Part shown: positions 1 to 14,414 of the stretch, in pieces
How positions within the stretch are numbered: position 1 is the stretch's first letter
Layout: every line of letters begins with the position of its first letter
Assembly (NCBI GenBank): GCA_021821425.1
Contig: JAKACL010000038.1
Location: 1-14,414, forward strand
Length of the DNA: 14,414 nucleotides
Direction: 5' to 3'
Source of the DNA: Pseudomonadota bacterium
Lineage (GTDB): Bacteria; Pseudomonadota; Gammaproteobacteria; Burkholderiales; Thiobacillaceae
The notes under the pieces: model-generated
What the model was told of the DNA's origin: nothing
What the model saw: the letters and a program-made list of their open reading frames with translations, nothing else
Database searches by the model: none
Made by a program: the position numbers and the translations under genes

Positions 1-96
1 TTGCGGCGGGCGATTTACCTGAGCCCGAATTTGGCCTTCCTGCGTTTCGCATTCAGGATGTGGCTGCCGCGTCCCTCAGATCGCGAATCCGGTTAG
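1..96 (+). CDS. 3' end of an unidentified protein (partial)
   Basis: Frame 1 is open from the window edge to a TAG at 94-96 and encodes about 31 residues ending in WLPRPSDRESG. Third codon positions are mostly G or C, as in the genes that follow, which favours this frame over frame 3 (also open, to a TAA at 144-146, overlapping the next gene). The fragment is basic and hydrophobic, and it could be the tail of a glycosyltransferase or membrane protein. No family can be named from so little sequence. It would be the gene immediately upstream in the plus-strand run, 39 nt before the methyltransferase start. Confidence 0.35.
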   Translation: MRRAIYLSPNLAFLRFAFRMWLPRPSDRESG

Positions 97-121
97 AGAC
101 CAAAGATCCATCCTCGGACAC

Positions 122-128
122 AAGGGAG
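122..128 (+). promoter_or_regulatory. Shine-Dalgarno site of the methyltransferase gene
   Basis: AAGGGAG lies 7 nt upstream of the ATG at 136. It is one of the few clear ribosome binding sites in the window. It decides between the ATG at 136 and the in-frame GTG at 130, which would almost touch the site. Confidence 0.6.
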
Positions 129-135
129 AGTGCAT

Positions 136-921
136 ATGCGCGATAAAAGACAAGTCATACAGGATGACGATTATTCGTTTCCTTATCACTACGTGCCGCA
201 GTTCGAGCCTGGCTACACGCAGACTTACTCATGGTCGTGGGGGCTGTATTACGTCAGCGCGATGCAATTCGTGCTGGAGCAGGTCAAGCATCGAAATCCT
301 GCCTCGGTGGCAGATATCGGCACCGGGGATGGCCGTTTGGTGCGGGAACTGTCGATCATGCTGCCCGATGCGCGCATAGCCGGCGTGGATTATTCGGACC
401 GTGCAATCCAGCTGGCGCGGGCGCTGAATCCGACTCTCGACTTTCGCTGTCTCGACATCACACGCGAGCCGGTGGGTGAAACCTTCGATGTTCTGACCCT
501 GATCGAGGTTTTCGAACACATCCCACCTGATATTGCAGATGCGTTCGTAGCGGCCCTTCACCCCCTTCTGCGCGAAGATGGCTGCCTGCTGGTGACCGTT
601 CCCCATGAAAACATCCGGGTCTCGGCCAAGCATTTCCAGCATTTCTCGGCCCAAAAATTGCTGAACTATTTCGAACCCCATTTCATCCTTGAAGAAACCG
701 CCTTTCTCGACAGGCGTAGCCCCATGGTCAAGCTGATCAGAAAAACGCTGGAGAACAAGTATTTCATCCTGGCCCACTGGGGAATCCGCAATCGCCTTTA
801 CAGGATGTACAAGCATTTTTTCCTGCTTTCGGACGAGCCTCATTGCGGGAGGATATTCATGCGCTTCCGTCCCAGGCCTGCCGAACCGTCAGGAACCCGA
901 ATCAAATCAACATCAATATAG
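136..921 (+). CDS. Class I SAM-dependent methyltransferase
   Basis: The gene encodes 261 residues. A Rossmann-type SAM-binding core is visible: motif I VADIGTGDGRL at about residues 58-68, an acidic strand-2 end in GVDYSDRAIQLA, then the LIEVFEHIPP segment typical of Methyltransf_11/23 proteins. The protein is soluble, with no signal peptide or membrane segment. The N-terminal 45 residues are rich in Tyr and Trp and could contribute to acceptor binding. In this context the likely substrate is a sugar or sugar-lipid intermediate of the exopolysaccharide (inference); O- versus N-methylation cannot be told. The ATG at 136 is preferred over GTG 130 because of the AAGGGAG site. A GT2 gene follows after 17 nt, so the two are probably co-transcribed. 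Confidence 0.85.
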   Translation: MRDKRQVIQDDDYSFPYHYVPQFEPGYTQTYSWSWGLYYVSAMQFVLEQVKHRNPASVADIGTGDGRLVRELSIMLPDARIAGVDYSDRAIQLARALNPTLDFRCLDITREPVGETFDVLTLIEVFEHIPPDIADAFVAALHPLLREDGCLLVTVPHENIRVSAKHFQHFSAQKLLNYFEPHFILEETAFLDRRSPMVKLIRKTLENKYFILAHWGIRNRLYRMYKHFFLLSDEPHCGRIFMRFRPRPAEPSGTRIKSTSI

Positions 922-938
922 ACATCAACAACACGATC

Positions 939-1850
939 GTGGAAGCCAGCATCATTATCTGCACCTACAACCGGGCCGAGTCTTTACGGGACACGCTGGG
1001 ATTCTTGCGTGCGCTCGAGGTGCGCCCTGGCGTACAGTGGGAAGTGATCGTCGTCGACAACAACTCGAAAGACCACACGCGCCAGGTCGTCGAGAAAGCA
1101 CAACACGACTGGCCACAGCTGCGCTATGCGTTCGAGGCCAAACAGGGGCTTTCCCACGCGCGCAATCATGGGATCGGCTGTGCGCAGGGCGAGGTCATCC
1201 TGTTCACGGATGACGACGTGCTGCCCGAGCCGGGCTGGCTGGAGACTACGTTGACCGGACTCGAAAAATACGGCGCCGATGCCTCCGGGGGCTACATCGC
1301 CCCGATCTGGGAAACGCCACCGCCAGACTGGCTGACCGAGCGGTTTTACGGATTTCTGGCGGTGCGAACGGATCGCACGGATGACTACCTCATCAGCAGC
1401 ACGGACCAGATGCCATTCGGTGCCAACATGGCGTTCCGAAAAAGCGTGTTCGACAAGGTTGGACTGTTCGACACCAGTCGCGGTCGCAAGGGCACAGTGC
1501 TGGCCAGCGGCGAGGATGGCGAGATGTTCGAGCGCATTCTAGCGGCGGGCTGCAAAGCGGTTTTTCTCGGCCAGTCGCGTGTGCATCACAAGGTTGAAGC
1601 GTTTCGCCTGACAAAGCGCTATTTTCGTCGCTGGCGCTTTCAGACGAGCCGGAATATTGCACAAAGCCGCGGTCTCACAGGGGATCGGCGGATTTTCAAT
1701 ATCCCGCTTTTCGTTTTTCCCCAGCTGATGCGGGCCGTCCTGCGTATGGCGTGGGGACACCTGACCCAGCCCCGCGACGAGGCCTTCAATCGGGAGATCG
1801 TCGTCTTCCATTTTCTGGGCCTGATCCAGGGCCTTTACCGCGCGCGCTGA
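939..1850 (+). CDS. Family 2 glycosyltransferase (GT-A fold)
   Basis: The gene encodes about 303 residues from a GTG at 939. The protein opens directly with the GT2 nucleotide-sugar strand (ASIIICTYNRAESL) and continues with VIVVDNNSKD. It has a metal-binding acidic triplet FTDDDVLPEPGWL (D91-D93) and a SGED motif (E192-D193) supplying the likely catalytic base. It is predicted to be a cytoplasmic or membrane-associated inverting sugar transferase acting on a lipid-linked intermediate; donor and acceptor are unknown. A TTG at 843 keeps the frame open farther upstream, but that would add a non-conserved Asn/Ile-rich leader overlapping the methyltransferase, so GTG 939 is chosen although no Shine-Dalgarno is visible. 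Its first domain resembles the GT2 domain of the next gene, 3 nt downstream, suggesting an old duplication. Confidence 0.88.
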   Translation: MEASIIICTYNRAESLRDTLGFLRALEVRPGVQWEVIVVDNNSKDHTRQVVEKAQHDWPQLRYAFEAKQGLSHARNHGIGCAQGEVILFTDDDVLPEPGWLETTLTGLEKYGADASGGYIAPIWETPPPDWLTERFYGFLAVRTDRTDDYLISSTDQMPFGANMAFRKSVFDKVGLFDTSRGRKGTVLASGEDGEMFERILAAGCKAVFLGQSRVHHKVEAFRLTKRYFRRWRFQTSRNIAQSRGLTGDRRIFNIPLFVFPQLMRAVLRMAWGHLTQPRDEAFNREIVVFHFLGLIQGLYRAR

Positions 1851-1853
1851 CTC

Positions 1854-4800
1854 GTGGCCGATTCTCTCACCATCCTGATCTGCACCCACAATCGCGCAGA
1901 CCTGCTCGAACGGGTTCTGACGTCGATCAATGCGGCCAAGCATCCTGCCATGCCGACGAAAATCCTTGTCGCTGCCAACGCCTGCACCGACGACACCGTG
2001 GAACGCATGCGGGCGTATCAGGCCCTGCAGGCCGAGCGTGGCTGGATTCCCTTGCGGGTGATCGAGGTGCCAGCACCCGGCAAGTCACATGCCCTCAATC
2101 GTGCGATTCCGGAAATCGACACTGAACTGACCGCCTTCGTCGATGACGACCACCGGGTTGATGAGAACTACCTGGTCGCCATCGAACAGGCTGTACACGC
2201 GTGGCCGGATGCTGGCTTGTATTGCGGGCGTATCCTCCCGGACTGGGACGGTACCGAGCCCGAGTGGGTTCACGATGAGGGGCCGTACCGCATCTACCCG
2301 TTGCCGGTTCCGCGCTACGACCAGGGCGACGAAGCCAAGACAATTTCCCCTGACAAAGGCCCCATCCCCGGCGGAGGAAATCTCGTGGTCCGCCGCGCAG
2401 TATTCGAACTGACAGGGCAATTTTCGACCGAGCTTGGTCCGCACGGGCACGATCTGGGGGGCGGAGAGGACAGCGAATACGTGATGCGCGCAATGACGCG
2501 CAGCGTGCGCTGCCAGTATGTGCCGGGCATGGTGCAATATCATTATGTCGACACCGAGCGCCTGCGGCTGGGCTACCTGCTCAAGAAAAGCTACCATCGC
2601 ACTCGCTCGACTTCGCGCATTCATGGGAGCGGTTCTGTACCGCTTTACATGTGGCGCAAGCTTGGCGAGTATGTGTTCCATAGCCTACTGAGCCTGTCGT
2701 GGGCACGGCGCCGCTTTTATTGCATGCGCACAGCCGCAGCGCTCGGTGAAATACAGGGCCGTCGCGAGTCGGGGCATCGAAAGAAGAAACTCGTCCTCCC
2801 ACCCGACCAGGGCATGGTCGCTGTCCAGCTGCTGTCGCCCATCACGGTCGCGTGCGCCCTGATCGCCTGGTTCGCGAGCGGCGATGCCAAATGGGCAGGC
2901 CTGCTGCCCGCTACCGGAGCGGCCTCGCTGGGGGCGGTCGCGCTGCTCGCCAAGTCGCTGGTCAATTTCTCGCAGACCGGGCCGCGCATGCACGAGAAAG
3001 TGCTCACACACTACCGGCGCTACACCCTGTTGGCGCTGGCACGCCTGACTGCCTGGACGTTTGCGCTGATGTTGTTCACCGGCGGCGCTGGGGTGTTGCT
3101 GTACTTCATGCTCAACACTGTAATCGGTGCGTCATGGTCGATGGGCCTGGCATTCATCGCCGCCATTCTGGGCGTGCTGGGCGCGTTCGCGCTGCAATTC
3201 ATTCGCAAGTTGCGCTTCAATCCCGGCCTCCTGGTGGCGTCGATGCATTACCGCATGAGCCGGCTGTACCTGCTTTGGCAGGGGATGACGCCGGCCCGGA
3301 TCGCGAGCCTGCAAGGCGGCGCGATGGGCCTTGTCGGGCTGCTGCTCGCGGCCGCCAGCTGGCAATTATCGAAAGAGGGCCGACTCGGCGACCTCATGGC
3401 GCTGTGGGCGGCCATACTGTTTTTTGTAGGGACAACCACCTGGGCGAGCTGGCAGCCGCTGGCACGTGCCCCGCGCATGCGGCCCGTACGCGCAGCCGAT
3501 GCGCCGCCCAATATCCTGATGATCGGCTCCGACACGCTGCGCGCCGACCGGCTGGGTGCATTGGGCTACCGCCGCGCGCTGACGCCCAACATCGATGCGC
3601 TGGCTGCATCCGGCACTTTGTTCTCAAACTGTTATGTGCCCTGCGCGCGCACCGCACCCAGCCTGATCTCGATGCTTACCGGCACCTGGCCGCACACGCA
3701 CGGCATCCGTGACAACTTCATACCCGATGGGGATACGCAGCTCAAGATGGATGCGCTGCCCACGCTGTTAAGGCAGGGGGGCTATCGCACCGCTGCAATC
3801 TCGGACTGGTGCGGCGCCGACATGGGCAAGTTTTCGTTCGGCTTCGACTACACCGACCTGCCGGAAGACCAGTGGAACCTGAAATACCTGATCCGCCAGG
3901 GGCCCAAGGACCTGCGCCTGTACATTTCGCTGTTCACCCACAACCGGCTTGGCCGCCTGTTTCTGCCGGAGCTGTACTACCTGGGCGGCGTGCCGCTGAC
4001 ACAGCCGCTGGGCAGGCGTGCACGGCGGCTGGTATCGCGCCTGGCCGAAAGTGCGGAGCCTTTTTTCCTCAATGTGTTTTATTCCACCACACACCCGCCG
4101 TTTGCTTCCGAGTGGCCGTGGTACACGCGCTTCGCCGATCCGGGATACTCAGGCGAATCCAAGTTCGCGATGACGCGTCTCACCGACCCGTTCGACATCA
4201 TTCGCCGCCAGGGCGCGCCGAAGGAGGAGTTCGACCTCGACCAGATCATCGATCTGTACGATGGGTGCGTGGCGGAATTTGACGATGAAGTGGGGAAGAT
4301 GCTGTCTCATCTTGAAACATGCGGGTTGTCGAGCAGCACGGTTGTTGTCGTCTACTCCGATCACGGCATGGAATTCTTCGAGCATGACACCTGGGGCCAG
4401 GGCAACTCAGCCGTCGGTGAAGCCAGCCCGCGGATCCCGCTTGTCATCCGTGATCCGCGCCTGACGCCCGCAGGGGAAATAGACCGGGTGGTGCGTTCGA
4501 TCGATCTGGCCCCCACCCTGCTTGAACTTGCCGGCCAGCCCCCGGCTCCTGCGATGGACGGGGTATCGCTTGCGGGCTGCCTGTCAGCGAACGGCGTCTG
4601 CCCGGAGCTCGACGCCTTCAATGAAACCGGCATCTGGATCACCGACATTCCCGGTCTGCCCGAGGACCATCTGCGCTATCCGGATTTGCTGGAGCTGATG
4701 GAGGTGCCGGATCGGGCCAGCGGCACGTTGGCGATCAAACAGGAATACGGCGAGGGGATACTTGCCGCCAAGGACCGTATGCTCCGTCATGGCCGCTGGA

Positions 4801-4961
4801 AACTCGTGTATCAGCCGCTCAATAGCAACTATGTACTGCGCCTGTACGATCTGGAATCCGATCCAGCCTGCCGCCACGATGTGTCAGCACAACATGCCGA
4901 CATCACTGCGGATTTGTGGGAACGCCTGCAAGCCTTTGTTGACCGGACTGAGCACCTGTGA
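1854..4961 (+). CDS. Fusion: GT2 glycosyltransferase - membrane segments - alkaline-phosphatase/sulfatase-superfamily domain
   Basis: The gene encodes 1035 residues, with a GTG start 3 nt after the previous stop. Residues 5-280 are a GT2 domain: LTILICTHNRADLL, the DDD metal triplet at 97-99, and GGGED with E205-D206. Residues about 322-533 hold five or six hydrophobic segments (near 323-341, 348-368, 391-421, 428-450, 488-508 and 514-533). From residue 552 an alkaline-phosphatase-superfamily domain begins: PNILMIGSDTLRADR with metal ligand D560, TAPSLISMLTG with T600 in the nucleophile slot, and YSDHG with D836/H837. Classical sulfatases have Cys or Ser in C/S-x-P-x-R at the T600 position. 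Thr there is used by phosphoethanolamine and phosphoglycerol transferases such as EptA and LtaS, so phospho-group transfer or phosphodiesterase chemistry is more likely than sulfate hydrolysis (inference). The frame is open throughout, so this looks like one polypeptide. Confidence 0.85.
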   Translation: MADSLTILICTHNRADLLERVLTSINAAKHPAMPTKILVAANACTDDTVERMRAYQALQAERGWIPLRVIEVPAPGKSHALNRAIPEIDTELTAFVDDDHRVDENYLVAIEQAVHAWPDAGLYCGRILPDWDGTEPEWVHDEGPYRIYPLPVPRYDQGDEAKTISPDKGPIPGGGNLVVRRAVFELTGQFSTELGPHGHDLGGGEDSEYVMRAMTRSVRCQYVPGMVQYHYVDTERLRLGYLLKKSYHRTRSTSRIHGSGSVPLYMWRKLGEYVFHSLLSLSWARRRFYCMRTAAALGEIQGRRESGHRKKKLVLPPDQGMVAVQLLSPITVACALIAWFASGDAKWAGLLPATGAASLGAVALLAKSLVNFSQTGPRMHEKVLTHYRRYTLLALARLTAWTFALMLFTGGAGVLLYFMLNTVIGASWSMGLAFIAAILGVLGAFALQFIRKLRFNPGLLVASMHYRMSRLYLLWQGMTPARIASLQGGAMGLVGLLLAAASWQLSKEGRLGDLMALWAAILFFVGTTTWASWQPLARAPRMRPVRAADAPPNILMIGSDTLRADRLGALGYRRALTPNIDALAASGTLFSNCYVPCARTAPSLISMLTGTWPHTHGIRDNFIPDGDTQLKMDALPTLLRQGGYRTAAISDWCGADMGKFSFGFDYTDLPEDQWNLKYLIRQGPKDLRLYISLFTHNRLGRLFLPELYYLGGVPLTQPLGRRARRLVSRLAESAEPFFLNVFYSTTHPPFASEWPWYTRFADPGYSGESKFAMTRLTDPFDIIRRQGAPKEEFDLDQIIDLYDGCVAEFDDEVGKMLSHLETCGLSSSTVVVVYSDHGMEFFEHDTWGQGNSAVGEASPRIPLVIRDPRLTPAGEIDRVVRSIDLAPTLLELAGQPPAPAMDGVSLAGCLSANGVCPELDAFNETGIWITDIPGLPEDHLRYPDLLELMEVPDRASGTLAIKQEYGEGILAAKDRMLRHGRWKLVYQPLNSNYVLRLYDLESDPACRHDVSAQHADITADLWERLQAFVDRTEHL

Positions 4962-4994
4962 CCTGCTGATGGGTGGCGCAGGTATCCGGCGCGG

Positions 4995-5765
4995 TCAATC
5001 CGGACAAAAGCGGCAGTAGGGATTATTCGGCGAACCTATTTTCGGTTGCTCGCCCGGCGCAGGGGCAGCAGCGGGTTCTGCCTTGTCGGGCTCGGCCGGC
5101 GCTGCGGTCACCGCAGCTGGCGCGACATCTGCCGGTGTGGCGGCTTCCGTGTCAGCCTCCCGCGCCGATCGAATCGGTTCAGGATACGGCAGCTTGCCGC
5201 CCAGTTCGCTGTAACGACGTTGCAGGCTTCTGGTATCGGGGTTGTGCCGCAAGCCTTCGCTGACCGTTTCCAAGGCCTTGCCGCGATTTTTCATCTTGCC
5301 GTACAGATCGGCCAGCGTCAGGTAGGCGCGCGGCTGCTTGGGATTCAGTTCAATTGCCTGGAGCAGGTTGCTCACTGCTTCGCCGTCACGTTTCATCATC
5401 GACAGGGCGATGCCGCGATTCATCAGGATTTCCGGGCGCATGTAAAAGTCGGGCGCAGCATGCGTCAATACATAGTCGAACTCCCTCACAGCCGCACCCA
5501 GGGTTTCGTTTTTCTTGGAGCTTGACGAACCGCGTACATGGTTCAGCAATTTCAGTCCGACACAGTAGTGATGGATATGAATGAAATCGCTTCCCATGGT
5601 TTTTTGCCAGTTTTTGAACGCATCCGATCCCTGGTTGAAACGCGCTGCGCAATACGGCGGCAGCGCGGCCATCTCAGCCTGCGTGGGCTCCCAGGCGGCC
5701 TTTGCCGATGCAATGGGCAACAGCATGACAAGCCATGAAAGCAGTACTTTGTCAAAATTTCTCAT
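4995..5765 (-). CDS. Secreted TPR-repeat protein with C-terminal YCRFCPD tail
   Basis: The gene encodes 256 residues. A signal peptide is visible (K6, hydrophobic VLLSWLVMLLPIA, likely cleavage after A23 in AKA), so the protein should be periplasmic or exported. The mature N-terminus carries LPPYC (C39) and a histidine-rich IHIHHYC (H63, H65, H66, C68). TPR-like helices follow at about 110-185 (RPEILMNRGIALSMM..., AYLTLADLYGKMKNRGKAL). A Pro/Ala-rich linker then leads to NPYCRFCPD with C251 and C254. TPR proteins usually scaffold complexes, so a role in assembling the export or polymerisation machinery is plausible but unproven. The start is supported by an AGAGGA site 9 nt upstream of the ATG. 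The gene lies 38 nt behind the GT2 gene and is the last of the minus-strand run, convergent with the fusion gene. Confidence 0.8.
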   Translation of the reverse strand: MRNFDKVLLSWLVMLLPIASAKAAWEPTQAEMAALPPYCAARFNQGSDAFKNWQKTMGSDFIHIHHYCVGLKLLNHVRGSSSSKKNETLGAAVREFDYVLTHAAPDFYMRPEILMNRGIALSMMKRDGEAVSNLLQAIELNPKQPRAYLTLADLYGKMKNRGKALETVSEGLRHNPDTRSLQRRYSELGGKLPYPEPIRSAREADTEAATPADVAPAAVTAAPAEPDKAEPAAAPAPGEQPKIGSPNNPYCRFCPD

Positions 5766-5803
5766 CGAATCGAGTCCTCTTTGTATCCAAACATGCGTTT
5801 CGA

Positions 5804-6670
5804 TTATTCGGCGGCATTGATTTCACGGATCGCAAGCCAGTCGAACAGGGTATTCAAGCCGCGCCATTCAAGACGGAGCACTTCAGGAAAACGCGGGTAC
5901 AGATTACGGATATGCTGCGGAAGCAATTCGAAGCCGTCGGGTTGAATGGCTTTCCCCAGCATTTTGTTCTGGTAACCCCGCACGCTGTAGCGTACGCGCC
6001 GCCTGAAATATTTTTTCCATTCGCGCGGCAACCAGGGCGAGACGGAGTCGAATTCGAATCCCGCTTCGTGGGCCACGGTCACCTTGTTGTTGTCCCAGCG
6101 TGTGTCTCCGCGCAAATCCCACTTCAGCATCGCCCCCATCAGCGCGTCCTCACCGATGGTGCCAATGGGCATATTGATCGCCCGGCTGCGGATACGTTCA
6201 ACAAAGGCGCCGCGCAGCCCATACAAGTTGCCTGCAACACCCTTGTTTTCCAGCATGTCACGCTTGAATGCCTCGATGCCGCGTCCACTTTTTGGCAAGG
6301 CGGACACGCCATTGGCCTGCGAATTCTGCTTCAGCGCCAGCGCCATGGCATCAAGCGCACCCGGTGTGGCGCGCACATCGCCATCGATGAAAAAATAGTG
6401 CGAAGCCTCGCGCGGCGACGCCTCATGGACAAACACATTCCAGGCATTGGCCTTGTCGCCCAGCGCGATGGAGACGAGATGGACATTGGGATGGCGGGTC
6501 GCGTATGCGCGCACCAGCGTTTCGGTTCGATCGGTGCAGGCATTCGCCAGCACATAACATTCGATTGTGTGACGGGTGGAAACCTGCAGGCTGTCGAGGC
6601 AGGCAATGATGTTGCGTGCCTCATTATGGGCAAAGACAGCGACGGGCCAGGCTTGCGGAGTGTCAGTCAT
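5804..6670 (-). CDS. Family 2 glycosyltransferase
   Basis: The gene encodes 288 residues. The GT-A signature is VAVFAHNEARNIIACLDSL at the N-terminus, NACTDRTE near residue 45, and the DxD motif FFIDGDVRATPGALD (D96, D98). A downstream IGEDALMG gives the acidic pair usually near the catalytic base. A basic stretch WKKYFRRRVRYS may bind phosphate or lipid. It is probably a cytoplasmic transferase adding a sugar to a lipid-linked glycan; specificity is not visible. It begins 26 nt after the GT4 stop and has no clear Shine-Dalgarno, so translation may depend partly on the upstream cistron. The ATG at 6670 is used because the GT fold starts about eight residues later. Confidence 0.88.
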   Translation of the reverse strand: MTDTPQAWPVAVFAHNEARNIIACLDSLQVSTRHTIECYVLANACTDRTETLVRAYATRHPNVHLVSIALGDKANAWNVFVHEASPREASHYFFIDGDVRATPGALDAMALALKQNSQANGVSALPKSGRGIEAFKRDMLENKGVAGNLYGLRGAFVERIRSRAINMPIGTIGEDALMGAMLKWDLRGDTRWDNNKVTVAHEAGFEFDSVSPWLPREWKKYFRRRVRYSVRGYQNKMLGKAIQPDGFELLPQHIRNLYPRFPEVLRLEWRGLNTLFDWLAIREINAAE

Positions 6671-6696
6671 GAATGGGGGTCAAGGTCGAAGGGCTG

Positions 6697-7833
6697 TCAG
6701 GTTAGGTTCCGGGTTTTTTCGGCGACACGTTCCCAGGAAAATTCGCGTTCGACTCTAAGCAGAGCATGGTGCCCCATTTCCTCGGTAAGCGCAGTCCGGG
6801 TCAACAGGCTGCGCAAGGCGTCCGACACGGCATCCACCGTCGCGCCATCCACCCGAACGCCGGTTTGTTGGTGCAGCACCGCCGATCCCGTGCCCCCTGC
6901 TTCGCCCGCCAGGCTCGGCTTCCCGCACGCGGCCGCCTCGATGAACACCATGCCGAATCCCTCGTTGTCGCCATTGATGTCGCGATTGGGCATGGCGAAC
7001 ACATCGCAGGCATTCATCCAGCGCGGCAGGTCGGCCTCGCTCACCGCGCCCATCCGGTGGACGACATCCCGCACATTATGTTCCGCGATCAGGCCATCGA
7101 GGTAATCGGCGTCCTCGCCGATGCCGGCGATGACATAGCGCACCGGAATGCCCTGGGCATGCAGTTGCGCGACGGCACGGATCATCTGGTCGAAGCCCTT
7201 GCGGCGCGACAGCCGGCCGACCGAGAACACCAGTTTGTCGTCAGGCCGAATGCCGAGCTCTTCACGCAGACCGCTGACGTCCAGGCCTGGCCTGAATACC
7301 GACACGTCGACGCCCGGATAGATGATTGCGATGCGTCCCGGGTCGATACCCATGCCGAGCAAGGTATCGCGGGTGTGCTCGCTGTTCGCGATCACGCGGT
7401 TTGCGTGGCGCAGCGCGAAGCGCATTGCCTTGTATTTTCCACCGCGTCCCCAGGTGGTCAGTTCTTCGCCATGCGCATAGATTACGACCGGGCGAAACGT
7501 CAGGCGCGCCACCGCCCATGCCACCAGACCTTCGGGCAGGGCGCGAAAGGCATGGACCGCATCGAAACGGTGACTCAGCGCCAGTGCCAGCGACTTGAAG
7601 AAGAAGCGCGCGTACATTGCCAGCGATTCAGGACGCAGCCAGGGCACGCGCTTGAGGTTCAGGCGATGAATGGTATTGGGGTGGACGGCGTCGACCGCCT
7701 GCGCGCCCGGCACATCGGCGGTAACGATGTGGATTTCCTTGCCGCCCAGGCGCTTGTAAACTTCGGCCGCCCACACGGCGGTGCCGCCCTTGGTGGGCAG
7801 GAAGAGTTCGGTGAGGACGAGCAGGCGGTTCAT
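6697..7833 (-). CDS. Family 4 glycosyltransferase (GT-B fold)
   Basis: The gene encodes 378 residues, the usual GT4 length. The N-terminal acceptor half has LTELFLPTKGGTAVWA, matching the glycine-rich loop of GT4 enzymes. It also has IYAHGEELTTWGRG and VIANSEHTRDTL. The donor half has VYPG-like IYPGVDVSVFRP (171-182), SVGRLSRRKGFDQ (204-216) and the EX7E motif between E291 and E299 in EGFGMVFIEAAACGKPSLAG. These mark a retaining nucleotide-sugar transferase, probably acting at the cytoplasmic membrane face during repeat-unit assembly (family knowledge plus context). No Shine-Dalgarno is seen before ATG 7833. A dispersed palindromic repeat sits just upstream and separates this gene from the preceding GT2 in the same run. 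Confidence 0.92.
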   Translation of the reverse strand: MNRLLVLTELFLPTKGGTAVWAAEVYKRLGGKEIHIVTADVPGAQAVDAVHPNTIHRLNLKRVPWLRPESLAMYARFFFKSLALALSHRFDAVHAFRALPEGLVAWAVARLTFRPVVIYAHGEELTTWGRGGKYKAMRFALRHANRVIANSEHTRDTLLGMGIDPGRIAIIYPGVDVSVFRPGLDVSGLREELGIRPDDKLVFSVGRLSRRKGFDQMIRAVAQLHAQGIPVRYVIAGIGEDADYLDGLIAEHNVRDVVHRMGAVSEADLPRWMNACDVFAMPNRDINGDNEGFGMVFIEAAACGKPSLAGEAGGTGSAVLHQQTGVRVDGATVDAVSDALRSLLTRTALTEEMGHHALLRVEREFSWERVAEKTRNLT

Positions 7834-7856
7834 GGATATCGGTTTAATGATCTAGC

Positions 7857-7922
7857 TGGATCGCCGTGGCCCTTTTGGCCTCGCGATGACGGGGAGCGCT
7901 GCAAGCGAAACGAAGCAATCCA
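7857..7922. repeat. Dispersed palindromic (REP/MITE-like) intergenic element
   Basis: This 66-bp element fills most of the 113-bp gap between two minus-strand glycosyltransferase genes. Its ends are inverted: TGGAT at 7857-7861 and ATCCA at 7918-7922. Inside is a hairpin in which ATCGC (7860-7864) and GGCC (7868-7871) pair with GGCC (7877-7880) and GCGAT (7882-7886). It resembles from memory the family of intergenic repeats reading roughly TGGATTGCTTCG...CGCGATGACG that occurs in many copies in several proteobacterial genomes. Only one copy is in this window, so its repeat nature rests on that resemblance and on the symmetry. It could affect transcript processing or attenuation between the two genes. 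Confidence 0.55.
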
Positions 7923-7946
7923 CAGGCGCTGGTTGTTCATGGCATG

Positions 7947-8873
7947 TCATCCCCGGAGCATCGACAACACCGTGCGCAGGTTTTGCCAGTTGGGCCGTTC
8001 GACGAAGGAAGGCAGCACGGCCTTGACTGCGGCGGCGCGCTGACCGCTTTTGCTGAGCGCGCAACCCAGGTTGTAGCGCGCACTGGCCATCCGCTCGGCC
8101 ACACCTGTCTGCACGGCGGCGGGGAAATTTTCTGCCAGCCGTGCCAGGTCGGTCAGCGTGCGCACGTTTTCGCGCTGCGCCGCCACCGGATCGCGCCGGG
8201 TGGCGCTGCCGCCGTGGATCACATAGACGCCGAGGCTCTGGCACGCCACGCCGATGCGGCGACTGCCCGCCACCAGCCGGGTGAGGAAATGTACGTCTTC
8301 GCAGACCTTGTATCCGGTGGGGTAGCCGCCCAGTTCGATGAAGCGCGCGCGCGGCACCGACAGCGTGTGGGTGTCGCCGAAATGGTCGGCGACGAAGGCG
8401 GCGATTTCGGCGGGGGTTTCGATCACCGCCCGCGCCGCGCCGGATGCCTTCGCCAGCATCATGCGTCCGGATGCGTGCTGCGCCATCGAGGTGCCGAGTA
8501 ATGCGCCGGCATCGTCGCGGTATTCGTAGTCGCCGGTCAGGCAATCCAGCGGCGCGCCCTCGGCGATCCATTCGGCATGCAGCCGGATGCGGTCGGGCGC
8601 ATACCAGTCGTCGGCATCCAGAAACGCCAGCCAGTCGCCGGTGGCCGCGGCAGCACCGGCATTGCGCGCGACCGAGACGCCGCGGTTGCGCTGCCGGATC
8701 AGGCGCACGCCGTCGAATCCCGCCGCGACTTCGGCTGTAGCATCGGTCGAACCGTCGTCGACGACCAGAATTTCGTGCGCAGGCCAGTTTTGCGCGCGCA
8801 CCGACTCGATCGCGCGCGCCAGCGTGGCGGCGGCGTTGAAGGCGGGAATGACGACCGAGAAGCGCGGGCTCAT
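7947..8873 (-). CDS. Family 2 glycosyltransferase
   Basis: The gene encodes 308 residues. The GT-A core is very clear: FSVVIPAFNAAATLARAIESV at residues 5-25, ILVVDDGSTDAT near 35-46, GVSVARNAGAAAATGDW, and the metal-binding LDADDWYAPDR (D86, D88). The C-terminal third (after about residue 210) is helical and Arg/Ala-rich without recognisable motif. The product is predicted to add one sugar of the repeat unit; the sugar is unknown. The ATG at 8873 overlaps the stop of the deacetylase-like gene as ATGA (4 nt), which indicates translational coupling with that gene and supports this start. Confidence 0.92.
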   Translation of the reverse strand: MSPRFSVVIPAFNAAATLARAIESVRAQNWPAHEILVVDDGSTDATAEVAAGFDGVRLIRQRNRGVSVARNAGAAAATGDWLAFLDADDWYAPDRIRLHAEWIAEGAPLDCLTGDYEYRDDAGALLGTSMAQHASGRMMLAKASGAARAVIETPAEIAAFVADHFGDTHTLSVPRARFIELGGYPTGYKVCEDVHFLTRLVAGSRRIGVACQSLGVYVIHGGSATRRDPVAAQRENVRTLTDLARLAENFPAAVQTGVAERMASARYNLGCALSKSGQRAAAVKAVLPSFVERPNWQNLRTVLSMLRG

Positions 8874-10063
8874 GCGCGCGCCCCCAGCAGCGCCAACGGC
8901 AGCGCAAGGCCACTGAGCTGCGCGATCCGGCGAAAGCGCGGGATCTCGGGCAGCCGTGCCCGCCAGGCGGAAAGCCGCAGTTTGAGCCGGTTTTCGATCC
9001 AGTCCGGGTCGCGCTGCCGGATTGCGCGCGCAAGTTCGAGCGGCGTGACAAAGCGCAGGTCGGGACAGCGGGCGAGCGCATCGCGCAGGCCGGTTTCAAG
9101 CGCGGCCAGGCTGGCGTCCGGCGCATGCAGGAAATTGAAGCGGTGGGTTTCTACGAGGCAGGCGCGGCCCTGCCAGGTGCGGGTGATCAACCCGTCGACC
9201 AGGCGCTGCGGCGCATGCCCCAGTGCGGGTTCGAAATAGACGTCGCGAACCAGATAGATTTGGCCGGCGAGCGAACGCTCGCCTGTCAGCAGGGTGGCAT
9301 CGACGCAGCCGGGTTGGCCGGCAGCATTGCGGCAGGTGGCACGGCAGCCGGGCGTGATGACGGTGTCGATCCCAACCTGCGCCCACGCGGCTTCTACCGC
9401 ATCGGTCCAGACGAAGGTGGTGGCGACGGCCACCTGCGGCGCGCTGCCGAACAGGGTTTGATAGGCCTGTGCTTCGGCGGCAACCGCCTGCCGGATCGCA
9501 TCGGCCGTCAGCGCGCGCGACGGCAGGCCGGATGCATCGACCCAGCGGCTTTGCAGCGGCGAGGGCAAGCCTTCGGTCGTGGCAGGCGCGGACGCGGTGA
9601 GCCAGTCGCGCACGGCGGCGTCGTGCTGCGCCGCGGTCATCAGCGCCGGCGGCCAGTAATGGCACTGGCCATGCAGCTGCGGTGCGAACACGCCGGCGGC
9701 GATGCCCGACTTCATGGCGGCACGCACGGCGTCGAAGCGGGCGTCGGCCAGCGGCAACGCATGGTATTCGCTGCAGTCGGAGGCGGCGATGCGCGGGCCG
9801 TCGGGGACTTCCAGGATCACGCCGAGGGTCATGACCGCCGACCGACCGCTGCGGTCGCGGATGCCTTGCAGTACAGCGGACAGGCGGGCCAATGCCCCGC
9901 CCTGTTCCAGCGGGCCCGCGCCCCAGTCGTCGCTTTCGATGACCAGTACCGGATGGCGCAGCACCGGCTCGCGCCAGCGGGCCGCGAGCGGACGGGCAAA
10001 GGCCAGCAGCACGCTGCCCCACAGCAGCAGCAGCGCAGCAAGCACAAGCGCCAATGCGGTCAT
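8870..10063 (-). CDS. Membrane-anchored polysaccharide deacetylase-like (NodB/CE4-type) protein
   Basis: The gene encodes 397 residues. An N-terminal hydrophobic helix (residues 3-23, ALALVLAALLLLWGSVLLAFA) suggests a membrane anchor or uncleaved signal. The catalytic-looking region starts at LVIESDDWGAGP with D45-D46, then LHGQCH with H131 and H135. That is the HxxxH arrangement which, with an Asp, binds metal in carbohydrate esterase family 4. Later elements are TFVWTDAVEAAW (217-228), a Cys-containing insertion (C240, C244, C253) and LVETHRFNF (303-311). The likely role is removing N- or O-acetyl groups from the nascent polymer (inference). The sequence is distant from textbook NodB proteins, so confidence in activity is moderate. 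The start ATG overlaps the sulfotransferase stop by one base (TGATG). Confidence 0.75.
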   Translation of the reverse strand: MTALALVLAALLLLWGSVLLAFARPLAARWREPVLRHPVLVIESDDWGAGPLEQGGALARLSAVLQGIRDRSGRSAVMTLGVILEVPDGPRIAASDCSEYHALPLADARFDAVRAAMKSGIAAGVFAPQLHGQCHYWPPALMTAAQHDAAVRDWLTASAPATTEGLPSPLQSRWVDASGLPSRALTADAIRQAVAAEAQAYQTLFGSAPQVAVATTFVWTDAVEAAWAQVGIDTVITPGCRATCRNAAGQPGCVDATLLTGERSLAGQIYLVRDVYFEPALGHAPQRLVDGLITRTWQGRACLVETHRFNFLHAPDASLAALETGLRDALARCPDLRFVTPLELARAIRQRDPDWIENRLKLRLSAWRARLPEIPRFRRIAQLSGLALPLALLGARA

Positions 10064-10980
10064 CAATACCCCATCCGGCCGGCCACGTCCGCCACCTGCG
10101 GCAGCACGCGCTCGATCTTGTCGCGGTTGCGGCCATCCTTCCATTTGTCGAGGCGGATTTCGGAGAAGGCGTTGTAGGGAATGTCGAGCACATCGGCGCA
10201 ATGCGCCTGCAGGCGGGCGTCGAAGTCGAGGCCGCAGCCTTCGAACACCTGGCGGAAGGTGGCGACCGGGTCGCGCAGAAAATCCTCGTAGAACACCTCG
10301 ACCCACTGCCCGACGGGGAGTTGCGCCTTTGCTTCGAGGATGGCCTGGTTGATCGCCTTGTACTGGAAGGCGGCGACGTCTTCGACCGGCGCATTGACAT
10401 ATTCGCGCCAGCCGTCGGCCAGAAAGAAGCACCACTGGGTCAGCGTGCCGTTTTCCACCATCACCCGGGCCGGCAGGTCGTTCGACCAGGTGGCGAATTC
10501 ATCGGGTTTGCGCCAGCCCTCGATCAGCGAATTGAGGTTGTCGCCGGGGCTGCGCTTGACGAAGACGAATACCGCGTCGGGGAATAACGCCTGCAGGTAG
10601 GGCACGCACAGCCCGTTCTGGTTGTTCTTGTCGACCCAGCGATGGCGGCCGGTCCAGCTGTAGAAATAGCGGCTGACGGTGTCACGGTCGGCTGCACTGG
10701 CGTCGTCCGCATCCAGCGCATGGGTGTCCCAGTGCTTGTCGGACAGGGGATGCAGGCCGGTCCAGTAATCGTGGGTTTCGCGTTGCAGGGTGCCGAGCTC
10801 GCGCGACTCGGACAGAGTCTTGTAGACCAGCGTGGTGCCGGCGCGCGAGCAGCCGACGACGATGACGGGGCGCTGCGCGGGCGGCCGCGAAATCGACCAG
10901 TGCATGCTGCGCGCGTTGCGCTGCAGGCGGCGTGCATGCCAGGCAAGGGTCTTGCCGACTTTGGTGAGGAATGCGTTCAA
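10063..10980 (-). CDS. PAPS-dependent sulfotransferase
   Basis: The protein has about 305 residues if started at TTG 10980. The 5'-phosphosulfate-binding loop is PVIVVGCSRAGTTLVYKTL (near residues 38-56), and the 3'-phosphate motif is FVKRSPGDNLNSLIEGW (R/S-P-x-D...S, near 140-156). Both are standard for Sulfotransfer_1/3 families that transfer sulfate from PAPS to a hydroxyl or amine. The substrate is presumably a sugar of the exopolysaccharide (context). The start is uncertain. An ATG at 11076 extends the frame by 32 residues with poor codon use across the probable promoter of the divergent gene, and an ATG at 10905 would remove a good-looking N-terminal helix. A weak AGAAAG precedes TTG 10980. 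The gene is translationally coupled to the deacetylase-like gene by TGATG. Confidence 0.85.
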   Translation of the reverse strand: MNAFLTKVGKTLAWHARRLQRNARSMHWSISRPPAQRPVIVVGCSRAGTTLVYKTLSESRELGTLQRETHDYWTGLHPLSDKHWDTHALDADDASAADRDTVSRYFYSWTGRHRWVDKNNQNGLCVPYLQALFPDAVFVFVKRSPGDNLNSLIEGWRKPDEFATWSNDLPARVMVENGTLTQWCFFLADGWREYVNAPVEDVAAFQYKAINQAILEAKAQLPVGQWVEVFYEDFLRDPVATFRQVFEGCGLDFDARLQAHCADVLDIPYNAFSEIRLDKWKDGRNRDKIERVLPQVADVAGRMGY

Positions 10981-11095
10981 CGGGCTGGGCTTTCTGACAA
11001 TATGCCGGTCCTGGCGAACATACAGGATTCGTGCCAAGGGGCAGGCTCGTTTATATTGGCGGACATTATCCCGCATCACACCGACACAACACACC
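10981..11095. promoter_or_regulatory. Divergent intergenic region, probable promoter(s)
   Basis: This 115-bp segment separates the divergent sulfotransferase and asparagine-synthase-like genes and is visibly richer in A+T than either. A TATATT at 11052-11057 could be a -10 element for the plus-strand gene, but the matching -35 is poor. On the minus strand TTGGCA (11033-11038) is -35-like without a good -10 at the right spacing. No operator palindrome or riboswitch is evident. The assignment rests mainly on gene orientation and composition. Confidence 0.35.
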
Positions 11096-12922
11096 ATGGA
11101 TGGCATTTTTGGCTGGCTGGGCGATCACGGCGCGCATCAGGATCTGATCCGGCATATGGGCGACGCGGCCCGTCTCTCGAAGGAAAGCACCCCGCACACG
11201 CACAGCACCCCGCAATTGGGCATGGCGGCCGCATCGCGCTTCGGCAAGGCGGTCCTCCATCTGGAAAACGGGCTGGCCGTCGCGCTGAACGGGCGGCCGC
11301 GTTTTCTCGACGACGATCTGTCCGCGCTCGCGCAGCAGCGGAACCCGGCCGCGGCGGCGGCGCACGGCTGGCTGCGTCATGGCGAAAAGCTGCCGGCGCG
11401 GATGCACGGCACCTTCGCCCTCGCTGTGCTGGAGCCGCAGAAAAAAGCCGCGTTTCTGGCGCTCGATCGCGTCGGCGCCGAACGCCTGTGCTTCGCCCGG
11501 CACGGCGGCCACCTGGCATTCGGCAGCAGCGCGCAAAGCGTGGCGTCCCACCCCGCCGTGGGCCATGTCATCGACCCGCAGGCGATTTACGACTACCTCT
11601 ATTTCCACGCCATTCCGGCGCCGCGCAGCCTCTACCAGGGCGTAAAGAAGCTGCTGCCGGGCCAGTACGCCGTGCTGCGCGACGGCCGCCTCGCCACCGG
11701 CTTTTACTGGCAGGCCGATTACAGCCCGGTGGACGCCGGCTTCGCACGCCATCGCGCCGACTTCCGCGACACGCTGACGCAGGCCGTGCGGGACGCCGAT
11801 GCGCCGGCCACCGCGGCGTTTCTTTCCGGCGGCACCGACAGCTCGACCGTGGTCGGCGCGCTTACCGCCGCGCGCGGCGCCCCGGTCGACACCTTTTCGA
11901 TCGGCTTCGACGCCGCGGGCTTCGACGAGATGGAATACGCGCGCTGCGCCGTCGAGCGCTTCGGCTGCAACAGCCACGAGTACTACCTGAAGCCGGCCGA
12001 CATCGTGACGGCGATTCCCCTCATCGCGCGCGAATACGACGAGCCGTTCGGCAATGCGTCGGCGGTGCCGACCTACTTCTGCGCCAGGGCCGCACGTGAA
12101 GCCGGTTTCCAGAACATGTTCGCCGGCGATGGCGGCGACGAAATTTTCGGCGGCAATGCGCGCTACGCCAAGCAGGGCCTGTTCGAGGCCTATGCCCGCC
12201 TGCCCGCCGTGCTGCGACGCGGCCTGATCGAGCCGATCGCAAATCTGCCAGGCCTTTCGGACAGGTTTCCGCTGTCCAAGCTGAAAAGCTACGTCGCCCA
12301 GGCGCGGATCGGGCTGCCGCTGCGGCTGGAAAGCTACAACTTCCTGCACCGCACGCCGCTCGACCAGATTTTTTCCGCGGATTTCATCGGGAGCGTCGAC
12401 CCCGCGACGACCGATGCCGCGTTGACCGAGGTGTATCAGCGCACTGCTTCGGACCACTACCTCAACCGCATGATGCACCTGGACCTGAAATTCACGCTGG
12501 CCGACAACGACCTGCGCAAGGTGGGCACCATGACCGAGGCCGCGGGCATCGAAGTGCATTACCCGCTGCTCGACGACCGCATGGTGGCCTTCGCCAACCA
12601 CCTGCCCGCCGACTACAAGGTGCGCGGGCAGAAGCTGCGCTGGTTCTTCAAGGAAGCGCTCGCCGACCTGCTTCCGGAAAAAATCATCAACAAGAGCAAG
12701 CACGGCTTCGGCCTGCCGTTCGGCGTATGGAGCAATGAATATGCCCCGCTCGGCGAGCTGGTCGGCGACAGCCTGTCGGACGTCAAAAAACGCGGCTGGA
12801 TCCAGCCAGCCTACCTCGACCATATGCTCGCCATGCAGCGTGGGCCGCACGCCAGCTACTACGGCGTGATGATCTGGGTGGTGGTGATGCTGGAGCAATG
12901 GATGGCGGCAAACGAGCACTGA
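11096..12922 (+). CDS. Asparagine-synthase-like amidotransferase lacking the catalytic Cys
   Basis: The gene encodes 608 residues from ATG 11096. It begins MDGIFGW, where glutamine-dependent asparagine synthases begin MCGI: codon 2 is GAT (Asp), so the Ntn glutaminase nucleophile is absent. The glutaminase domain is also shrunken. NGRPRF (65-70) stands where NGEIYNH is expected, although the later FALAVLEPQ...ALDRVG...LCF strands remain. The synthetase domain looks intact: the pyrophosphate loop FLSGGTDSS (242-250), DTFSIGFD, and FAGDGGDEIFGG near 345. Related proteins in polysaccharide loci amidate sugar acids or otherwise form amides with ATP. beta-Lactam and carbapenam synthetases are known relatives that lost the Cys and use another nucleophile. 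Free ammonia or an amino sugar as nucleophile is therefore possible (inference). No Shine-Dalgarno is obvious. Confidence 0.88.
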   Translation: MDGIFGWLGDHGAHQDLIRHMGDAARLSKESTPHTHSTPQLGMAAASRFGKAVLHLENGLAVALNGRPRFLDDDLSALAQQRNPAAAAAHGWLRHGEKLPARMHGTFALAVLEPQKKAAFLALDRVGAERLCFARHGGHLAFGSSAQSVASHPAVGHVIDPQAIYDYLYFHAIPAPRSLYQGVKKLLPGQYAVLRDGRLATGFYWQADYSPVDAGFARHRADFRDTLTQAVRDADAPATAAFLSGGTDSSTVVGALTAARGAPVDTFSIGFDAAGFDEMEYARCAVERFGCNSHEYYLKPADIVTAIPLIAREYDEPFGNASAVPTYFCARAAREAGFQNMFAGDGGDEIFGGNARYAKQGLFEAYARLPAVLRRGLIEPIANLPGLSDRFPLSKLKSYVAQARIGLPLRLESYNFLHRTPLDQIFSADFIGSVDPATTDAALTEVYQRTASDHYLNRMMHLDLKFTLADNDLRKVGTMTEAAGIEVHYPLLDDRMVAFANHLPADYKVRGQKLRWFFKEALADLLPEKIINKSKHGFGLPFGVWSNEYAPLGELVGDSLSDVKKRGWIQPAYLDHMLAMQRGPHASYYGVMIWVVVMLEQWMAANEH

Positions 12923-12929
12923 GTGCCAT

Positions 12930-12971
12930 GGCCTCGGGCTTGGCAGCCCCACCCCTCGCTGCTGAGAGGCC
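12930..12971 (+). terminator. Structured intergenic segment after the asparagine-synthase-like gene
   Basis: Seven bases after the stop an outer stem GGCCTC (12930-12935) pairs with GAGGCC (12966-12971). It encloses an abutting hairpin GGGCT (12936-12940) / AGCCC (12945-12949) with loop TGGC. No T-run follows, so it is not a textbook intrinsic terminator. Its place directly after a gene and before a convergent gene makes a role in ending or protecting the transcript reasonable. Confidence 0.3.
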
Positions 12972-13011
12972 CACCGCGTTGCCCTCCAGGCAGTTGGTCG
13001 ATTGCGTGAAG

Positions 13012-13028
13012 TCCACGCTTTTCGTGGA
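13012..13028. terminator. Hairpin between convergent genes
   Basis: TCCACG (13012-13017) and CGTGGA (13023-13028) form a 6-bp stem around CTTTT. It lies downstream of the stop codons of both convergent genes (12922 and 13055). Neither strand has a U-tract after it, so it is only a candidate terminator or 3'-end stabiliser. Confidence 0.3.
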
Positions 13029-13054
13029 AGAAATCGGGGCGAGGGTGCGCCCGC

Positions 13055-14383
13055 CTACATGTTGATGCGCCCCCCCGCCCCCACATGGTCGAAGCGACTG
13101 GACGGATGCAAGGGCACGCCGCTTCGCACCGGAATCGGGGCAGGCGCAGCTTTGCCCAGCACACCCGAAAACTTGGCGGTCAGGACGAGAATAATCATCA
13201 GGTGATAGGGCAGGTCGAAGTAGCCCATTCCAAGGAACGCGCCGCCTGCAGCATAGCCAATCAGGCTCACCTGTATCATGGACGCCAGATCGGATGCCCA
13301 TTTGTTTTCAGGGTCTTTTTTACATCGATTGATGACCTGCTGGGCGCGAATCCACGCCAGCAGACCAAGCAGCATGAACAGGCCGAAGCCGATGAATCCC
13401 TGTTCGCCCATGATCTCGAAGTAAATACTGTGCACGTCACGCGTATTGAACGGGTTGGGTGCATATTGCCGGAAGACGGGCGGCCGCCACATTTCAAAGC
13501 CACCGCCGGTAACGCGATCCTTGGCCACGTTGTATGCCGTATGCCAGGCGTTGATCCGGCCTTGTGCCGACTGGTCTTCCTCATAGGTTTGAATGGTATT
13601 CATGCGGTCGTACCATTCCTGCGGCATGACCATGGCGATGATGCCGACGGCCATCGCCATATAGATGCCGGTAACGATTTTGTTGCGGCTTTTGAGCCAC
13701 AGGAAAACGCCCATCGCCACAATGGCCACGAGCCCCCCGCGCGACTGGCTGCCCACCGCGGCGACGCCGGTCAACACCATGGCACTTGCAAGTCCGATCT
13801 TGACCCACTTCTTGACTTCCTGAAGGTGCAAATAGCGGATCAGCGGGATCGCCATCACCATTGCCAGCGCCAGTTCGTTGTTGCCGCCAATGAAGGTTTC
13901 CGCCGGACCCTGCACCCGGTAGGCCCCGCCATTGATGATGGTGAAAATTCCGCCCTTGATGCCATAAAAGCCGAATGACACGGCGATCACCCAGATCAGC
14001 CAATGCAGCTTGTGACGGTCGTTGATGATCAGCGCAGTGAGAAAAATCATCAGCTGGATCTTCCACACCTTGTCCCACTGCAACCAGGCATCGGTGGGAT
14101 AAAAGGCAAAGAACGTGGTGAACAGCATCCAGCCTACGAAGATCAGCAGCAGGACCGTCTCGCGCGACCAGACCATTTCTTTTTTCTCTTTCGAGAACAT
14201 GAAAGCGGCGATGGTGACGAGCCCGACCACCATGGCGAAGGGGAAATCGTAAGCAAAGCCCCATGCCAGCCGGTGCGGGTTCATGTAGCCCAGCCACGAC
14301 CACAGCAAGATACCCAGCCAGGGACGTTTGAAAACAAACGGCAGCAAGCTGAAAATAACGCCGGTAACGAAAAGGTCTCTCAT
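13055..14383 (-). CDS. Exosortase A-associated O-antigen ligase/polymerase-like membrane protein
   Basis: The gene encodes 442 residues with roughly ten to twelve hydrophobic segments. The N-terminus MRDLFVTGVIFSLLPFVFKRP and WSWLGYMNPHRLAWGFAY (28-45) match my memory of the family called putative O-glycosylation ligase, exosortase A-associated (TIGR03097). Wzy/WaaL-like features are GSQSRGG with R215, GRINAW with R276, a loop TGGGFEMWRPP, and DVHSIYFEIMGEQG with H318 and E327, equivalent to the periplasmic His/Glu region of the Wzy_C family. The protein would polymerise or transfer undecaprenyl-linked glycan at the periplasmic face. True ligase activity has not been shown for this family as far as I know. 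The last 30 residues are a soluble Pro/Gly-rich tail. The ATG probably overlaps the upstream stop (ATGA). Confidence 0.9.
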   Translation of the reverse strand: MRDLFVTGVIFSLLPFVFKRPWLGILLWSWLGYMNPHRLAWGFAYDFPFAMVVGLVTIAAFMFSKEKKEMVWSRETVLLLIFVGWMLFTTFFAFYPTDAWLQWDKVWKIQLMIFLTALIINDRHKLHWLIWVIAVSFGFYGIKGGIFTIINGGAYRVQGPAETFIGGNNELALAMVMAIPLIRYLHLQEVKKWVKIGLASAMVLTGVAAVGSQSRGGLVAIVAMGVFLWLKSRNKIVTGIYMAMAVGIIAMVMPQEWYDRMNTIQTYEEDQSAQGRINAWHTAYNVAKDRVTGGGFEMWRPPVFRQYAPNPFNTRDVHSIYFEIMGEQGFIGFGLFMLLGLLAWIRAQQVINRCKKDPENKWASDLASMIQVSLIGYAAGGAFLGMGYFDLPYHLMIILVLTAKFSGVLGKAAPAPIPVRSGVPLHPSSRFDHVGAGGRINM

Positions 14384-14414
14384 GGCTTCCGCGTCCCCAT
14401 TGTTTCAGGATTGA
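14380..14414 (-). CDS. Possible 3' end of an upstream gene (partial)
   Basis: A frame open from the right edge ends with TGA at 14382-14380, giving ...NPETMGTRKP. That stop overlaps the ligase ATG as ATGA, an arrangement common in such operons and also used elsewhere in this window. About ten residues are too few to name a product. Another frame is also open here, so the call rests on the overlap alone. Confidence 0.28.
   Translation of the reverse strand, partial: NPETMGTRKP

Follow-up and report, generated by a model that had tools for sequence, protein, structure and literature searches.

Membrane enzymes of the LtaS/EptA/OpgB type consist of an N-terminal membrane bundle followed by a domain of the alkaline phosphatase (AP) superfamily; LtaS and EptA act through a threonine nucleophile, and in the known membrane relatives with such a nucleophile the catalytic domain faces outward. 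The same order of membrane bundle and AP domain is found, behind a family 2 glycosyltransferase (GT2) head, in a single gene on a stretch of 14,414 nucleotides from a Pseudomonadota bacterium of the Thiobacillaceae (GenBank assembly GCA_021821425.1, contig JAKACL010000038.1, positions 1–14,414, forward strand; this whole stretch is termed the window). Compared with the LtaS/EptA/OpgB proteins, the fusion is closer in sequence to S1 sulfatases, carries the GT2 head and is predicted to be inverted in the membrane, so that its catalytic domain lies inside. The fold of its AP domain is common to the S1 formylglycine sulfatases and phosphonate monoester hydrolases (PF00884; 6hr5, 4uph), from which the fusion differs in lacking the formylglycine Cys/Ser, the signature Arg and the Lys following the SDHG motif, and in being membrane-anchored and fused to a GT2 domain. 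In its GT2 match and motifs, the head resembles the HpsE-like and EpsD-like GT2 enzymes of exopolysaccharide (EPS) loci, which stand alone; all matches of the window to these models lie below the curated cut-offs. As the first-pass annotation of the sequence had supposed, no characterised protein of the GT2-membrane-AP layout was found in the literature, as far as titles and the opening lines of abstracts show. Of the new findings, the modularity of the family is of most interest: at least three GT2 heads are combined with one conserved membrane-plus-phosphatase chassis, and the heads appear to have been exchanged repeatedly.

The fused gene and its relatives

The fused gene (1854..4961, + strand) begins with a GTG codon three bases past the stop of the upstream GT2 gene and encodes 1035 amino acids in a frame without internal stop, as first annotated; the single frame is kept in related genomes. 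Pfam analysis revealed matches to PF00535 at residues 6–184 (E 3e-13; 50.5 bits versus a gathering score of 23.3) and to PF00884 (Sulfatase) at residues 552–894 (E 1e-45, above the cut-off), bearing out the claim that both the GT2 and the AP-superfamily domain are complete. GT2 families were confined to residues 5–232 and sulfatase-type families to residues 552–911, with no Pfam match in the fused protein from residue 232 to the start of the sulfatase block at 552. The head comprises approximately residues 1–310 (1854..2783, +), where the translation showed the previously reported motifs DDD at residues 97–99 (nt 2142–2150, +) and GED at residues 204–206 (nt 2463–2471, +); D97 is kept in 53/53 and D98/D99 in 51/53 fused rows of alignment A3. 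On its Pfam score and these DxD-type and acidic GED-type motifs, the N-terminal domain is assigned as a GT2 glycosyltransferase. The AP-superfamily domain (residues 552–1035; 3507..4958, +) has the S1 sulfatase/phosphonate monoester hydrolase fold. An AlphaFold2 model of the fusion, calculated from a 79-row alignment (mean pLDDT 88.1, pTM 0.85), showed six long helices between two parts of mixed helix and strand, one at the N-terminus and one, the C-terminal domain, behind the helices.

A full-length protein search (5.8 billion proteins; 7995 candidates scored) yielded at least 1293 homologues at E ≤ 0.001, the best 120 of which are 73–100% identical at a query coverage of at least 94%. Both GT2 and sulfatase Pfam labels were present on 119 of these 120, the remaining one (P0047, with a shortened start) having sulfatase labels only. 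Scanning genome contigs with family patterns confirmed 130 relatives, of which 80 loci were kept; conservation among these of the bait patterns, DQWNLKY and CYVPCART, is ascertained and does not constitute independent evidence. The loci belong mainly to Thiobacillus and Hydrogenophilales, and also to Nitrotoga, Sulfuricella, Aromatoleum, Thauera and some gammaproteobacterial-labelled bins.

An assembly or sequencing artefact joining two genes has practically no probability left. Split forms do exist elsewhere, which is all that speaks in its favour; the same single frame recurs in the independent genomes of the named isolates Thiobacillus thioparus DSM 505 (L011), Thiobacillus denitrificans RG (L038), Aromatoleum anaerobium (L046) and Thauera sp. 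28 (L060), by which the artefact is refuted.

The AP domain (E ≤ 1e-60) was detected in 19/399 genomes of one draw and in 21/369 of a second. The 41 places comprised 23 fusions (19 of head type A, 3 of type B and 1 of type C, as defined below), 13 standalone or split forms, 2 proteins with another N-terminal extension and 3 places at contig ends that were left unclassed. This survey of fused versus split loci showed the fusion to be conserved, and it qualifies the earlier statement that the two activities are normally separate: the split form is indeed common, and so is the fused one. Standalone relatives were retrieved with the AP domain alone as query; these proteins of about 700 amino acids contain the same membrane block and AP domain without GT2 and are 60–65% identical to the fusion in the AP domain. 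The top rows of that search (P0122–P0157) appear for the most part to be truncated fusions and were kept out of the standalone count.

At 11 of the 13 split or standalone loci (L131–L142, L145), a GT2 head of the same family is encoded by a separate gene within the fetched stretch, and in five of them (L136, L137, L138, L141, L145) it is the next gene. Thus, the fusion unites genes that mostly lie close together even when separate, which supports functional coupling of head and AP chassis.

Outside these 13 loci, the membrane-AP proteins of L125/L143 and L128/L144 carry about 215 extra N-terminal residues that match none of the three GT2 heads; Pfam gave no family for this part of the L144 protein, and no head gene was found at L143 or L144. 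A second AP-domain relative, in two broken pieces with in-frame stops, lies on contig C30 of G006, the genome that also contains the fusion locus L053.

Glycosyltransferase heads and their probable exchange

The head types of the fused proteins are type A (that of the window protein), type B (about 40% identical to A; e.g., L025, L028 and L034) and type C (about 20% identical to A; L039, L043, L044, L051 and L058). The membrane block and AP domain of the listed B and C examples are 58–86% identical to those of the window protein. From the rise in identity between relatives with different heads, the module junction was placed at about residues 305–320 (2766..2813, +). When eight different-head pairs were compared in 30-residue windows, low identity in the head was followed by high identity near the junction. 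The sharpest break was found for L001/L025, where identity rose from 40% to 97% between windows starting at residues 286 and 316; for L014/L034, it rose from 43% to 80% between windows starting at 301 and 331. The pair of the window protein and L025 is gradual, reaching 80% only at 361, and for L050/L068 (27–60% across windows starting at 286 to 391) a break is hardly visible before residue 400.

For a tree of the AP domain, 184 domains were reduced to 126 rows, of which 121 have a head state and five have none. On this tree, a quick one with 41 open branches among its 123 inner ones, the four head states need at least 22 changes, a number that recombination within the AP domain would likewise raise. 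Nine changes are required for type B (10 rows), eight of them forced by starred branches; the scatter of this type on the tree is no tighter than chance, 101 of 500 shuffles giving a value as low. For type C (4 rows) the number is four, but this type may have a single origin. The simplest reading of these data is a repeated exchange of the GT2 head near the domain junction.

At or beside the start of the fusion, 8 of the 80 loci contain a member of a family of about 309 amino acids (e.g., L034:9053–9979 and L059:2540–3469) that has no Pfam match. The adjoining fusion carries a type B head in seven of these eight cases and a type A head in one (L063), so that the head may travel with the neighbouring gene.

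Active site and membrane topology

Thr600 (3651..3653, +) occupies the position of the formylglycine Cys/Ser of sulfatases, T-A-P-S-L standing in place of the C/S-x-P-S-R motif. In each of the three alignments shown, Thr600 and Leu604 align with the Cys/Ser and the Arg of the signature, and they are present in 79/79 and 78/79 rows, respectively. Asp836-His837 of the SDHG motif (4359..4364, +) and Asp560 (3531–3533, +) are predicted metal ligands by their family roles; T600, D560, H747, D836 and H837 are identical in 79/79 rows. Within the segment 838–860 of the window protein, no Lys follows SDHG; Gln849 (79/79 rows) is opposite the Lys of 6hhm, and in the remaining two alignments the Lys stands one or two residues later. 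With the signature Cys/Ser, Arg and post-SDHG Lys replaced, the AP domain is, judged by its motifs, not a canonical formylglycine sulfatase, and a plain sulfatase was ruled out on Thr600 and Leu604.

A Thr at the nucleophile position together with Asp/His at the metal-ligand positions corresponds to the LtaS/EptA/OpgB type, the positions being those of the sulfatase alignment and their roles predicted. The family models of this kind scored below their cut-offs (LapC/YejM 20.6 versus 825, CptA 18.8 versus 404 and LTA synthase 17.9 versus 970 bits). No LtaS/EptA-type structure was among the Foldseek/VIA matches listed, an absence that says little as the list is filled by sulfatases and phosphonate monoester hydrolases. 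In one fusion (P0102/L053, Candidatus Nitrotoga sp. 1052), a fourth, C-terminal domain was found that matches PF04464, CDP-glycerol:poly(glycerophosphate) glycerophosphotransferase; at another locus, a 55% identical relative of this domain is encoded by the next sizeable gene (L079:7817–9148).

Six membrane segments were revealed by hydropathy averaged over 72 aligned rows (the window and 71 of the 80 loci, nine being truncated, open-ended or without a qualifying frame) and by AlphaFold2. These are located on the + strand at residues 319–341 (2808..2876), 345–370 (2886..2963), 381–424 (2994..3125; longer than the membrane), 430–455 (3141..3218), 480–507 (3291..3374) and 511–532 (3384..3449). 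A strongly positive stretch at residues 451–486 (3204..3311, +), overlapping the ends of helices 4 and 5, is predicted to be cytoplasmic; it contains two short helices in the model (457–463 and 468–477) and a mean of 6.04 K+R in 53 fusions. Helix 1 is clearly hydrophobic in 62 of the 65 fusions that could be anchored (72 examined, seven dropped as the anchor motif is missing), the other three scoring 1.17–1.28 against a threshold of 1.4. Among the 74 anchored standalones (84 examined, ten dropped for the same reason), 65 have no room for helix 1, and one has room but no hydrophobic segment. The AlphaFold2 model of the standalone P0168 (pLDDT 86.6, pTM 0.90) shows five membrane helices at residues 6–35, 51–87, 93–118, 143–170 and 174–195.

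GT2 enzymes require cytoplasmic nucleotide-sugar; given this need and the even number of helices, both catalytic domains of the fusion are predicted to face, and probably do face, the cytoplasm. In the five-helix standalones, the AP domain would then be inside, too, with the N-terminus outside. Loop counts of K+R point to a cytoplasmic AP domain in all 53 fusions (mean difference 12.6) and all 25 standalones (mean 11.4), one of the 79 rows (873 amino acids) belonging to neither size class and being left out; for the window protein, 22 versus 3 K+R were counted on the two sides, with the AP domain inside. Most of the weight for this orientation is carried by helix parity, more than by the charge rule.

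These results narrow the "five or six" hydrophobic segments of the first-pass annotation to six and contradict the odd number of membrane passes on which its further reasoning was built; it is most of the headless relatives that have five. The periplasmic location it gave to the hydrolase is disfavoured by parity and K+R counts, and coupling of sugar addition to modification of the glycan after flipping is not supported, this idea losing its basis with an AP domain predicted to be cytoplasmic. Trans-membrane coupling as the leading model was accordingly dropped on helix parity and loop charge.

Exopolysaccharide context and proposed role

The gene set of the window comprises a methyltransferase, a GT2, the fusion, a TPR protein, a GT2, a GT4, a further GT2, a deacetylase-like gene, a sulfotransferase, an XrtA-type amidotransferase (match below the model cut-off) and an XrtA O-ligase. 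The GT2 gene directly upstream of the fusion (843..1850, +) is HpsE-like, scoring below that model's cut-off. The exosortase-A-associated O-glycosylation ligase TIGR03097 (13055..14383, −; E 6.8e-188, 624.6 bits) marks the surroundings, by gene content, as an exosortase-A (XrtA/PEP-CTERM) EPS locus, in which the fusion sits. The sulfotransferase (PF13469) is encoded at 10063..11106 (−). A frame at 8870–10435 (−) is read as deacetylase-like on a weak GH57-like match (E 9.4e-4, below the cut-off); as its upstream part overlaps the sulfotransferase gene, its true start is probably later.

Above its cut-off, TIGR03097 was found in 38/40 genomes with the AP domain versus 7/40 without, and PF13469 at E ≤ 0.001 in 38/40 versus 12/40, the 40 non-matching genomes being the first listed in the two draws and not a random sample. 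Sulfotransferase-like genes occur in 48/80 loci and immediately upstream of the fusion in 15/78; neighbours as frequent as these suggest that the EPS may carry sulfate. Wzx-like and DltB-like clusters occur in 21/80 and 26/80 loci, respectively. For representatives of neighbour clusters 6, 12, 13, 14, 17, 28 and 33, no family was recognised at the thresholds applied.

Two published EPS clusters contain a gene labelled "sulfatase (wbbL)"; wbbL is a glycosyltransferase name, and this double annotation suits a fusion. One such gene lies in the cluster of Thauera aminoaromatica MZ1T (PMC4784049) and the other in that of Rubrivivax gelatinosus (PMC3684757), clusters that are tied to flocculation or biofilm; in the passages concerned, neither gene is tested by itself. 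The genes (Tmz1t_3253 and RGS1_10427) appear there in the same kind of locus as the fusion and are probably the same gene. Thauera aminoaromatica strain S2 (L072), of the same species as MZ1T, carries the GT2-membrane-AP fusion.

Taken as a whole, the explanation we consider best has about an even chance of being correct: the fusion would be a membrane-anchored, two-headed assembly enzyme of the XrtA-type EPS pathway, with both catalytic domains cytoplasmic. The GT2 head would use a nucleotide-sugar to extend the undecaprenyl-linked EPS repeat by one sugar, and the adjoining AP domain at the inner leaflet, metal-dependent and with its Thr nucleophile, would form or cleave a phospho(di)ester on this glycolipid or on its carrier, by transfer of a phospho-alcohol or by hydrolysis. 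A Wzx flippase would then move the unit across the membrane. In this scheme, the membrane-plus-AP chassis would be constant and the GT2 head an exchangeable module, present as one of at least three GT2 types or as a separate neighbouring gene, and the AP step would consequently be common to EPS repeats with differing sugars. Only tentatively do we extend this to an inverted, cytoplasm-facing family of Thr-nucleophile AP proteins that serves as a fixed EPS chassis for plugged-in GT2 heads, phospho-decorating or editing lipid-linked repeats before flipping, and that gained helix 1 to keep the fused head inside.

Several observations weigh against the two-headed cytoplasmic enzyme. No head gene was found in the fetched flanks of L133 and L139, among the 13 split loci examined, and at L140 it lies on the opposite strand. 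PF04464, fused or close by in 2 of the 80 loci, is the sole phosphoglycerol hint, and for its presence in just these two phosphoglycerol transfer was not adopted as a specific claim. An extra hydrophobic segment was found in 8 of the 74 anchored standalones, and in the one of these that was checked (P0184) the loop charges keep the AP domain inside. The AP domains of E. coli lapC, bcsG and opgB are periplasmic, and as applied here the charge rule placed only one of these three controls correctly: lapC was correct (12 versus 5), bcsG came out almost even with a slight tilt to the wrong side (3 versus 4) and opgB, with three segments, was wrong (1 versus 6), becoming right only when a below-threshold fourth segment, added afterwards, was counted. 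Finally, four cysteines of the AP domain hardly vary: Cys593, Cys597 and Cys805 are each present in all 53 fusions and all 25 standalones, and Cys1006 in all 53 fusions and 24 of the 25 standalones. Four cysteines so conserved would suit disulfides and hence a periplasmic location. Two of them, 593 and 597, sit just before the nucleophile position. As to the side of the membrane, the predictions place the domain inside, a placement that the weak charge controls and the conserved cysteines make less certain. In the relevant tables of the Rubrivivax gelatinosus study, moreover, no transposon insertion is marked in the "sulfatase (wbbL)" gene (PMC3684757).

A cytoplasmic GT2 with a periplasmic AP domain, acting on the glycan after flipping in the manner of LtaS/EptA/OpgB, would accommodate these cysteines, the two of three controls misjudged or nearly tied by the charge rule, and the outward-facing catalytic domain of the known Thr-nucleophile membrane relatives; in phosphoethanolamine transferases, the catalytic domain is described as periplasmic (PMC12344761). 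We regard this arrangement as unlikely, since six membrane helices are predicted, the positive-inside counts oppose it in 78/78 rows and, with an outward AP domain, the absence of just helix 1 in most headless forms would be unnecessary. Slightly less likely still is an AP domain acting on the sulfate esters of a sulfated EPS, by editing or transfer, with Thr replacing formylglycine: the residues that define sulfatases are gone (Cys/Ser to Thr, Arg to Leu, no Lys after SDHG). A catalytically dead AP domain that serves as scaffold or sensor like LapC/YejM finds a precedent in E. coli LapC, an AP-superfamily membrane protein annotated as a lipopolysaccharide signal transducer; the identity of T600, D560, H747, D836 and H837 in all 79 rows would be hard to explain without catalysis, and we hold this alternative to be very improbable.

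The fusion is a real feature of the family and frequent within its clade; it occurs in the EPS loci of Thiobacillus, Nitrotoga, Thauera and Aromatoleum. Its members are already covered by the database names arylsulfatase or sulfatase-like hydrolase/transferase, which, in the absence of the formylglycine site, are probably misleading as to function. If the AP domain faces the cytoplasm, the fusion would turn the LtaS/EptA plan round in the membrane, and its interchangeable GT2 heads would represent a natural case of EPS repeat diversification by the swap of one module.

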